Positions 35,714 to 44,270 of a stretch of DNA of 64,000 nucleotides are shown here, piece after piece. The notes under the pieces are model-generated. The model was not told the origin of the DNA, ran no database searches, and saw only the letters and a program-made list of their open reading frames with translations. Origin of the DNA: an uncultured Monoglobus sp. (GTDB taxonomy: Bacteria; Bacillota; Clostridia; Monoglobales; Monoglobaceae). The first letter of the stretch is position 1. Each line of letters opens with the position of its first letter. The stretch covers positions 1 through 64,000 of the forward strand of contig CANQLT010000002.1 of assembly GCA_947624775.1 (NCBI GenBank), read 5' to 3'. Position numbers and translations under genes: made by a program.

Positions 35714-35912
35714 AAAATAATTCCCTGCGTTGTGCGTAATTATGACACTAATGTAAAACCAACAAAATTAATAAGGGATTTTAATCTTCGGAGGCGGCGC
35801 ACATGCCTCACACCCTTCGGGGTCGTCCAGTGGACTTGTAAAGTTTCCGAGAAAATCCCACCTGGTTTCCAGGTTTTTACTTTAGTCATTCTACGGCAAT
35901 CGCGGGGTTTAT
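35714..35912 (+). ncRNA. Probable 6S RNA (SsrS/BsrA-like)
   Basis: Closing stem ttCCCTGCGttgtgcgta ... tacggcaatCGCGGGGttt; inner stem gggatttt..ttcgga ... tccgagaaaatccc; about 190 nt; strong promoter; no ORF. Confidence 0.7.
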
Positions 35913-41936: not shown

Positions 41937-42185
41937 ATGGAAAATCAGGAAACCAAAAAATTCAATTTGGACATGGAAAGACCCGACCCGAAAAAGATAA
42001 TAATGACGGTATATGCGGCGCTAAACGAAAAGGGCTATAACCCGATAAATCAGATCGTGGGATATATTCTGTCGGGTGATCCCTCCTACATCACTTCATA
42101 CGATGGCGCCAGAAGTCTTATCCGCAAGCTGGAGCGCGACGAGATCCTCGACGAACTGGTCTCATTCTATGTGAACAATAATTAA
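41937..42185 (+). CDS. ireB: IreB family regulatory phosphoprotein (DUF965)
   Basis: [51 protein letters not shown]. Confidence 0.92.
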
Positions 42186-42238: not shown

Positions 42239-42979
42239 TTAGCTCCATGCGTAGTGGTCAACAGAAATCTCAGCGTCGTTCTTCATGAAGTTATCATAGA
42301 AAGGAATCGTGTTCGTGTTCGATCCGTCTACGATGGGATCGTCCCAAGTTACATCAACATGGTACGCAGCACCGTTAACTTCGATAACGTTCCAGCTGTG
42401 ATTCATAGCTTCGCTCTCTACAACTGTGCAGGGAATACCAACCGCGTTCATAACATGCTGATAAGCGGAAGAATACGCCTGGCATACGCCTGTCTTGTTC
42501 ACGATCGCGTCATAAGCGGTTCTTCCCGTGTAGGACAGATCGTAAGAGCAGTTCTCGATAAAGTAATTGTGGATAATTCTTGCTTTTTCTTCTGCCGCCA
42601 TTGAACCGTCAACGAGGGCTGTGATTTTCGCAACCTCTGCGTCGAAAGCCGCAAGCTTCGCATTGATGGCTTCGGGGCTGTCAATATAAGTAATTGTCAG
42701 CTTTGTAGCCTTGTTTGTGGACGTTGAATAAGCGCAATCAACCGTCTTGGAAACGAAAAAGTTTCTCGGTGTCTTGTCCAAATAAGCCAAGAACGCGGTC
42801 ATAGCGTCATTGGGTGTAACATTGAACTTGCTAACGTCTACCGTCGTTGCATAGTTGGCGATAGCGGTCTCGAAAGCCGCGTCAAGCGCCGTGTTATCTT
42901 CAGCAGCATAAGCAGATACGCTGCAAACAGCAACAACTGCGATCAACAGAACAAAAATGCTCTTCAAAGTCTTTGTCAT
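42239..42979 (-). CDS. Secreted transglutaminase-like (papain-fold) protein
   Basis: Signal peptide MTKTLKSIFVLLIAVVAVCSVSAYA; catalytic-type TGVCQAYSSAYQHVMNAVGIPC ... MNHSWNVIEVNGAAYHVDVTWDD. Start at 42979 supported by ggagga. Confidence 0.82.
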   Translation of the reverse strand: MTKTLKSIFVLLIAVVAVCSVSAYAAEDNTALDAAFETAIANYATTVDVSKFNVTPNDAMTAFLAYLDKTPRNFFVSKTVDCAYSTSTNKATKLTITYIDSPEAINAKLAAFDAEVAKITALVDGSMAAEEKARIIHNYFIENCSYDLSYTGRTAYDAIVNKTGVCQAYSSAYQHVMNAVGIPCTVVESEAMNHSWNVIEVNGAAYHVDVTWDDPIVDGSNTNTIPFYDNFMKNDAEISVDHYAWS

Positions 42980-43060
42980 GATAATCCTCCAATCTTTCAC
43001 AAACCATTGCCAAGTGGCAATGACACTTATCACCTTTCGGTGACTCGACTTAATTAATAA

Positions 43061-43140
43061 GTAGGTGGCCGGGCTGTCATAGCAAGCGAGCTTGCTTTAG
43101 ACCCCATAGCTTTGCGTCCCCGGCTTTCGCCGGGTTTGCC
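43061..43140 (-). ncRNA. Cyclic-di-GMP-I (GEMM-I) riboswitch aptamer, gene-proximal copy
   Basis: Minus strand GGCAAACCCGGCGAAAGCCGGGGACGCAAAGCTATGGGGTCTAAAGCAAGCTCGCTTGCTATGACAGCCCGGCCACCT: GCAAACC, GAAA tetraloop, GGGACGCAAAGC, CTAAA and ATGACAGCCnGG elements. Confidence 0.9.
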
Positions 43141-43240
43141 GTTTGGTCAAGTTTTTATGGATTAAAACGATCAAACTTTCCTGTGGTATACCGCGATAAA
43201 TCGCAGAGCGCGAAACGCGCCCACTGCTTGTATACCAAAG

Positions 43241-43335
43241 CAGGCGGCCGGGCTGTCATGACCGAAACGCACGCGTCCGCGCGAAACTGTTTTAGACCCC
43301 ATAGCTTTGCGTCCCCGACTTTCGCCGGGTTTGCT
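43241..43335 (-). ncRNA. Cyclic-di-GMP-I (GEMM-I) riboswitch aptamer, middle copy
   Basis: Minus strand AGCAAACCCGGCGAAAGTCGGGGACGCAAAGCTATGGGGTCTAAAAC...CATGACAGCCCGGCCGCCTG. Confidence 0.9.
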
Positions 43336-43421
43336 CAATTATTAAATTGTAGTTCGATATGTCTTGTGACTCGGGACATACGGCAAGCCGCATATCCTTC
43401 GTCGCTGCCGGCATATCAGAA

Positions 43422-43515
43422 GCAGGCGGCCGGGCTGTCATTGTCAGCCGCGCGCGTCCGCGCGTCTCACTTTAGACCCCATAGCTTTGCGTCCCCGGCT
43501 TTCACCGGGTTTGCT
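43422..43515 (-). ncRNA. Cyclic-di-GMP-I (GEMM-I) riboswitch aptamer, promoter-proximal copy
   Basis: Minus strand AGCAAACCCGGTGAAAGCCGGGGACGCAAAGCTATGGGGTCTAAAGTG...AATGACAGCCCGGCCGCCTGC. Confidence 0.9.
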
Positions 43516-43628
43516 ACAATCGTTCATTGACGTTTAATGTTTTAAACATAAAAAGTCTTAAACGCGGAAAATGTGAACTTTGAAAAACACATCTCCCGGC
43601 TGAAGTGGAAATCCACCTCCGCATTGTC

Positions 43629-43658
43629 ATTTTATCACAGAGGCGGCAATTTTGTCAA
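43629..43658 (-). promoter_or_regulatory. Candidate promoter of the riboswitch array
   Basis: Minus strand TTGACA-N18-TAAAAT; would give a leader of about 640 nt. Confidence 0.5.
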
Positions 43659-43794
43659 TAATTTAACAGAAAAATTGTTCTAACATTTTGAGAGCAAACT
43701 TATCACATTTTACCAAAGAATCAAATTTTTAAATAAGACGCAAAATAAGCCTTGACAATCACACAAACTTATTGTATAATATATATTTGTGAGC

Positions 43795-43870
43795 GCCGAT
43801 ATAGCTCAGTCGGTAGAGCGATTCACTCGTAATGAATAGGTCAGCGGTTCGAATCCGCTTATCGGCTCCA
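43795..43870 (+). tRNA. tRNA-Thr (anticodon CGT), CCA encoded
   Basis: Cloverleaf: gccgata...tatcggc acceptor, tagctcagtcggtagagc D-arm, anticodon loop ctCGTaa, ggttcgaatcc T-arm, terminal CCA. Confidence 0.95.
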
Positions 43871-44270
43871 GCGGAAAAATGACCGCTATTTTTCGAAAGT
43901 CATGCAAAGCATGACTTTCTTTCTTTTTTAGCGGTCATTTTTCCGCTTTTCCCACGAAACGCACTTCGTTGGCGTTTCGCGGGAGCCCTAAGAAATCGCT
44001 TTTTTTGCGAACACCTTGCGGAGCAAGGTGTTCTTTTTTTACGGCGGTCGCTCCGCTTATCCCAAAAAGTCCTTCGGACTTTTCGGGAGCCCTGTTGACC
44101 GCTATTTTTCGAAAGTCATGCAAAGCATGACTTTCTTTTTTGTGCGGTCATTTTTCCGCTTTTCCCTCGACGTCCCGGCTCGCCCCTTGGGGAGGGCTGT
44201 CACCGAAGGTGACTGAGAGGGGTTAAGTTTCCCCCGGGGAGCTGTCCGCGGAGCAGACTAAGGGGGAGCC
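43870..44270. repeat. Array of palindromic hairpin cassettes downstream of tRNA-Thr
   Basis: 18-bp perfect IR agcggaaaaatgaccgct/agcggtcatttttccgct (43870..43887/43930..43947); the 25-nt palindrome gaaagtcatgcaaagcatgactttc twice (43895..43919, 44111..44135); hairpins gaacaccttgcggagcaaggtgttc and aaaagtccttcggactttt; three gggagccct elements. Confidence 0.88.

Follow-up and report, generated by a model that had tools for sequence, protein, structure and literature searches.

The window, a 64,000-nucleotide stretch of DNA from an uncultured gut Monoglobus bacterium, carries on its minus strand a leader with three tandem c-di-GMP-I (GEMM-I, RF01051) aptamers ahead of one gene for a secreted transglutaminase-like protein. 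The parts of the locus, in the direction of transcription, are as follows.

43629 to 43658, minus strand: promoter, TTGACA, 18-nucleotide spacer with TG, TAAAAT (11 of 12 consensus positions matched).
43532 to 43627, minus strand: 5' portion of the leader, with two hairpins before copy 1; pairing is kept in all seven species compared, with one two-sided change (AU to GC).
43422 to 43525, minus strand: c-di-GMP-I aptamer copy 1, the 5'-most (RF01051, 56.3 bits, E = 2.5e-8).
43346 to 43421, minus strand: spacer 1, a GATATG/CATATC stem enclosing a GCGGCttGCCG hairpin, then a CAATTTAATAATTG hairpin before copy 2; no terminator (alignment, pair counts).
43240 to 43345, minus strand: c-di-GMP-I aptamer copy 2 (RF01051, 57.6 bits, E = 1.2e-8).
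43187 to 43239, minus strand: first part of spacer 2, a TGGTATAC/GTATACCA stem that cannot coexist with CTGCTT/AAGCAG (pair counts).
43147 to 43186, minus strand: invariant segment of 40 nucleotides, 5' of and reaching into copy 3 (0 changes in seven species).
43179 to 43159, minus strand: predicted anti-Shine-Dalgarno (anti-SD)/anti-start strand, complementary to the Shine-Dalgarno sequence and start region.
43061 to 43150, minus strand: c-di-GMP-I aptamer copy 3 (RF01051, 73.9 bits, E = 1.2e-12).
43005 to 43062, minus strand: region separating copy 3 from the ribosome-binding site, with three small hairpins, ACTTA/TAAGT, TCACC-GNAA-GGTGA, and CATTGCC/GGCAATG (stems invariant and loops variable in seven species).
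42966 to 43004, minus strand: predicted expression platform, with GTTTG (43004 to 43000), the Shine-Dalgarno sequence GGAGG (42990 to 42986), the start codon, and the first codons (fold probabilities).
42239 to 42979, minus strand: open reading frame of the putatively regulated gene, for a secreted transglutaminase-like protein of 246 amino acids (PF01841, E = 4.6e-11).

A sequence-only reading of the same DNA had described three GEMM-I cores in series on the minus strand, upstream of a single secreted-protein gene, and had predicted three significant minus-strand matches to the covariance model. Rfam cmscan returned three, each above the gathering score of 35 bits that defines membership of RF01051, and the PF01841 gene lies directly behind the leader. 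A tandem c-di-GMP-I riboswitch is defined by at least two aptamers of the same class in a single leader, and this leader has three. No further c-di-GMP-I aptamer was found outside the array in the whole 2.77-Mb assembly, which is 96% complete. P2 with its GAAA tetraloop, P3 with the receptor, the GACGCAAAG core (A47), and C92 are present in all three copies in the sequence and the cmscan alignment; the core sequences are as the sequence-only reading gave them, and the peripheral stem, P3, differs in every copy. The positions needed small corrections. The array begins at 43525 rather than 43515, and the 3' edges of neighboring copies are 182 and 179 nucleotides apart rather than 181 and 180. 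The 5' edges are 180 and 195 nucleotides apart, the difference being due to the shorter P3 of copy 3.

The transcript is expected to start at about 43622 to 43627, and the positions of the promoter and of the start codon (42979) give a leader of about 640 nucleotides. Short open reading frames within the leader were set aside, as they lack a ribosome-binding site and any other support. The leader serves one gene only; the next gene downstream (41937 to 42185), of the IreB family, is convergent. The transglutaminase-like protein has a hydrophobic N terminus resembling a signal peptide, and the Cys (GVCQAY), His (NHSWN), and Asp (HVDVTWDD) residues of the catalytic motifs can be seen in its sequence. 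Its orthologues in the six other array-bearing species are 83 to 97% identical to it, and the nearest named genomes, in which the protein is 94 to 97% identical, are metagenome-assembled genomes of uncultured Monoglobus. Other elements of the window include a tRNA-Thr (CGT) gene at 43795 to 43870, which diverges from the riboswitch leader and has a perfect TTGACA-N17-TATAAT promoter (43752 to 43780). Downstream of the tRNA gene, positions 43870 to 44170 form a mosaic of perfect palindromes, two of GAAAGTCATGCAAAGCATGACTTTC and one of GAACACCTTGCGGAGCAAGGTGTTC, each followed by a T-run and with GCGGTCATTTTTCCGC units in between, that resembles clustered REP- or terminator-like repeats. A 6S RNA lies on the plus strand at 35719 to 35912 (Rfam, 82.6 bits).

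The complete triplet precedes the orthologous gene in seven species of the genus (G000, G002, G003, G004, G005, G007, and G010), which fall into two clades. Across these species 84% of the leader positions are invariant, as are 82% of the gene (first 537 aligned columns) and 34% of the DNA upstream of the promoter; the -35 element is invariant and the -10 element nearly so. The distances between 3' edges are 181 to 182 and 179 nucleotides in G000, G002, G004, and G005 but 182 to 183 and 169 nucleotides in G003, G007, and G010. Thus, the regular spacing of about 180 nucleotides to which attention had been drawn does not extend beyond one clade, and spacing as a functional phase is ruled out. 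Base pairs in which both sides changed between the clades number two in P3 of copy 1, two in P2 of copy 2, and one in P2 of copy 3. One further two-sided change lies in the hairpins before copy 1 and one in the TGGTATAC/GTATACCA stem of spacer 2, which also has two one-sided changes. These comparisons are between two clades only and therefore represent few independent events. Nevertheless, every copy has at least one two-sided helix change, which indicates that the folds of all three copies are under selection.

Conservation of the folds does not extend to identical ligand pockets. Numbered as in the Vc2 aptamer, the base immediately preceding GCAAA is position 20. Positions 17, 18, and 20 are the counterparts of A11, A12, and A14 in the cGAMP aptamer, bases that contact the ligand (PMC6274999). 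The consensus bases A17, A18, and G20 are found in copy 3 (J1/2 CCAAAC; G20 at 43140), with G20 in all seven species. Copy 1 has T17, G18, and A20 in all seven (A20 at 43515 in the window). Copy 2 has T17, T18, and A20 in four species (A20 at 43335 in the window) and T17, G18, and G20 in G003, G007, and G010. Thus, the consensus J1/2, A17-A18 with G20, is complete in copy 3 only, both other copies are without A17 and A18, and A20, the mark of c-AMP-GMP (GEMM-Ib) aptamers, occurs in copies 1 and 2 only. The ligand-core sequences GACGCAAAGCTAYGGGGTCTAAA...ATGACAGCCCGGCCGCC of copies 1 and 2 are conserved as well as those of copy 3. The earlier statement that all copies share one ligand core is therefore correct as regards P2, P3, and the GACGCAAAGC core; J1/2, with contact positions 17, 18, and 20, is the exception. 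Similarly, the proposal that selection has maintained three working sensors is borne out at the level of the fold, in seven species and with two-sided changes in each copy, but not for three equal sensors, given A20 and the loss of A17 and A18 in copies 1 and 2.

Among 50 other clostridial c-di-GMP-I aptamers, a sample biased toward high scores and tandems, G20 was found in 40, A20 in 9, A18 in 42, and A17 in 44. A17, A18, and G20 thus appear to be common states of c-di-GMP-I aptamers, not absolute requirements. At least three other clostridial genomes have tandem pairs that mix G20 and A20 (G133, G111, and G207; loci L085, L089, and L090). At L090 the A20 copy and its neighbor also differ in Rfam family, one of them scoring best as the variant c-di-GMP-I-GGC. 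G20 has been termed a selectivity factor, not a hard filter (PMC9262584). One study describes A20 as the mark of c-AMP-GMP aptamers and reports that an A20-bearing D. acetoxidans aptamer binds c-AMP-GMP much better and c-di-GMP perhaps slightly more weakly (PMC9481103). A20 together with the absence of A17 and A18 predicts weaker c-di-GMP binding or a changed specificity for copies 1 and 2.

Each of the two GGDEF proteins encoded by the window genome has the GHxxGD and GGDEF motifs in canonical form, and the substrate position is Asp in every orthologue read from other species. Hypr GGDEF enzymes have serine at the base-recognition position (PMC6456294); none was present among the GGDEF sequences read, and no SMODS nucleotidyltransferase was found in the window genome. 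On these grounds cGAMP from known synthases was ruled out. The canonical GGDEF enzymes, the lack of a SMODS protein in the window genome, and the mixed G20/A20 pairs elsewhere favor c-di-GMP as the ligand of copy 3 and, less firmly, a weaker sensing of c-di-GMP by copies 1 and 2. Single c-di-GMP-I aptamers precede EAL-like genes in four genomes from other genera of the family (L043, L044, L046, and L049; one gene confirmed by Pfam), which fits c-di-GMP as the ligand and reads as a feedback arrangement.

The c-di-GMP network of the seven array species is very small: each has two or three GGDEF proteins, EAL proteins are absent, and HD-GYP-type proteins do not exceed one (in the window genome, with the motif HHERWDGRGYP). 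All of their c-di-GMP-I aptamers lie in the triple leader. No PilZ match was found in the window genome. No c-di-GMP-II aptamer was found, but the same search gave no match in control genomes either. It may be suggested, but only suggested, that the c-di-GMP output of the array clade is confined to one gene. The size of the network differs widely within the genus: one genome (G011) has no GGDEF protein, no EAL protein, and no aptamer, and another (G009) has 14 GGDEF proteins, 4 EAL proteins, and two single aptamers, one of them before a different putative secreted protein.

By the criterion for tandem (pseudo-cooperative) riboswitches each aptamer has its own expression platform, usually a terminator; in this leader only copy 3 adjoins the ribosome-binding site. 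A scan of positions 42900 to 43800 revealed no minus-strand terminator-like site behind any copy, which rules out transcription termination between the copies as the platform. The predicted anti-SD strand (43179 to 43159) can pair with positions 42987 to 42966, which comprise part of the Shine-Dalgarno sequence, the start codon, and the first codons. In whole-leader folds of the seven species this helix has a probability of 0.82 to 1.00, with the start codon only 1 to 6% unpaired, and CAAAC in J1/2 of copy 3 (43145 to 43141) pairs with GUUUG (43004 to 43000), also with a probability of 0.82 to 1.00. Both strands of the anti-SD helix lie within longer invariant runs, of 40 and 58 nucleotides; the 58-nucleotide run is the longest, includes the predicted platform, and extends into the coding sequence. 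Because the strands are identical in all seven species, they offer no covariation to prove the pairing. In shuffles of the upstream segment, 300 for each of the two clades, the start codon was more accessible than in the real leader in 290 and 295 cases and equally hidden in 10 and 5. For the bare anti-SD duplex the result was marginal, with 51 and 45 of 1000 shuffles equalling it. The shuffles lend suggestive, not decisive, support to occlusion of the start codon. Translational control via copy 3 would be the likeliest platform, because the invariant segment 5' of copy 3 is the one predicted to pair with the Shine-Dalgarno sequence and start codon.

In the fold model, holding J1/2 of copy 3 open costs 4 to 7 kcal/mol and alone is not enough to expose the start codon; when the anti-SD strand is withheld from pairing, start-codon accessibility rises to 30 to 63%. 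In the nascent RNA, before the Shine-Dalgarno sequence has been made, the model allows J1/2 to pair with the anti-SD strand instead, which would permit control of the opposite sign. A local AAGUUU/AAACUU hairpin that would hide the anti-SD strand was discarded, its probability being near 0. Inspection by eye revealed no canonical P1 helix from the flanking strands of any copy. In its place copies 1 and 2 may each be preceded by a local hairpin, which is probable only in the case of copy 2; copy 3 is enclosed by a long-range helix. The probability of P3 of copies 1 and 2 in the whole-leader folds is about 0 in four species and 0.74 to 1.00 in the other three. The P3 arms of the two copies (43449 to 43464 and 43268 to 43283) are GC-rich, 94% identical, and nearly self-complementary, so that copies 1 and 2 could pair together in the first clade. 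In the whole-leader folds the GC-rich arms of that clade fold elsewhere, probably with each other; the local P3 of each copy should form first.

The explanation that we prefer, to which we give an even chance of being correct as a whole, is that the triple leader controls the transglutaminase gene, with copy 3 as the main c-di-GMP sensor and a translational platform, and copies 1 and 2 as weaker sensors. Copy 3, with its complete pocket (A17, A18, and G20), would be situated between the invariant anti-SD strand and the ribosome-binding site and start codon. Without ligand, its CAAAC would pair with GUUUG beside the Shine-Dalgarno sequence and help to close the helix that hides the start codon. 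Binding of c-di-GMP would occupy the junction strand of copy 3, weaken the closed form, and turn translation on. We put an ON switch only somewhat ahead of an OFF switch. Copies 1 and 2 would be retained as folded aptamers with altered pockets, and their weaker c-di-GMP sensing may widen the concentration range of the response. The explanation gives these copies no platform of their own, and this counts against it.

Another possibility is that all three copies sense c-di-GMP equally and independently and act as a pseudo-cooperative digital switch with a steep response, like the triplet of Bacillus thuringiensis. Selection on all three folds would be consistent with this, as would the precedent of a stringent triple array (PMC4759541) and the pseudo-cooperative model of PMC9481103. 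However, in B. thuringiensis the digital response is produced by three complete riboswitches that have a terminator each (PMC4759541). No copy in Monoglobus is followed by an intrinsic terminator, the pockets are unlike at positions 17, 18, and 20, and the spacing is not conserved. We regard the switch as rather unlikely, and the related idea of an in-phase array with a steep dose response has the spacing and the lack of terminators against it. If, instead, copies 1 and 2 were structural elements that bind nothing, insulator or stability domains, copy 3 would be the sole working switch. The loss of the J1/2 bases at positions 17, 18, and 20 in both copies points in this direction, as does the location of these bases in copy 2 within a local hairpin, CAAUU/AAUUG, with a probability of 0.94 to 0.98. 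Yet the ligand cores of copies 1 and 2 are as conserved as that of copy 3, and a mere structural element would not need them, which makes a purely structural role unlikely.

The A20 bases raise the further possibility that copies 1 and 2 sense 3',3'-cGAMP, self-made or external, that copy 3 senses c-di-GMP, and that the gene integrates both signals. A20 is the selectivity mark of c-AMP-GMP aptamers, as in the D. acetoxidans aptamer described in PMC9481103, and in copy 1 it is fixed in seven species. However, A20 is not rare among the sampled clostridial c-di-GMP-I aptamers (9 of 50), at least three other genomes combine it with G20 in a tandem, and copy 2 has G20 in three species. Furthermore, copies 1 and 2 are without A17 and A18, unlike most other A20 aptamers in the sample, the GGDEF proteins read have Asp in place of the Hypr Ser, and the window genome has no SMODS nucleotidyltransferase. 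Integration of the two signals is quite improbable on this evidence. The same low probability attaches to a broader two-messenger leader, with copies 1 and 2 for cGAMP or another dinucleotide, copy 3 for c-di-GMP, and one gene as the detected c-di-GMP output of the clade.

The triple is not novel in itself, as triplets are known (PMC4759541, PMC9481103, and PMC12452182). The characterized Bc3-5 array of B. thuringiensis also has three c-di-GMP-I aptamers serially in one 5' untranslated region (PMC4759541). However, Bc3, Bc4, and Bc5 each have a terminator platform and precede cspABCDE. The Monoglobus leader lacks terminators, precedes a transglutaminase gene, and has pockets that are unequal, and its predicted platform is at the ribosome-binding site. 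Contiguous c-di-GMP-I aptamers, 94% doublets and 6% triplets, are also recorded for COG1305 transglutaminase genes of Bacillota (PMC12452182), which share riboswitch class and gene family with the Monoglobus locus; the paper lists the association, and no mention of pocket differences or a translational platform was found in it. The same arrangement is represented among the doublets and triplets of PMC9481103, in the available part of which mixed position-20 identity within a same-class tandem was not found. Copies 1 and 2 resemble the c-AMP-GMP (GEMM-Ib) riboswitches of Geobacter in having A20 but differ from them in a J1/2 without A17 and A18, and no Hypr GGDEF was present among the sequences read. 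A further triple c-di-GMP-I array was seen in a different clostridial family (L091; G227:C1:1860000-1860800, minus strand, 484 to 399, 342 to 257, and 80 to 1).

The Monoglobus arrangement belongs to a known kind, and its unequal pockets, predicted translational platform, and small c-di-GMP network might be the points of interest for the specialist. Triple c-di-GMP-I arrays are rare, with 12 triplets against 347 doublets in one survey (PMC9481103), and the Monoglobus triplet has been kept across seven species. If no other effector exists, the c-di-GMP pathway of these bacteria would be close to a one-gene circuit, which would be a clean setting for comparing a triplet with a single aptamer and for following the effect of unequal pockets on the dose response. 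With their mix of A20 and G20, the pockets would allow one to test directly whether sensors that differ in affinity or specificity are combined in tandem arrays.
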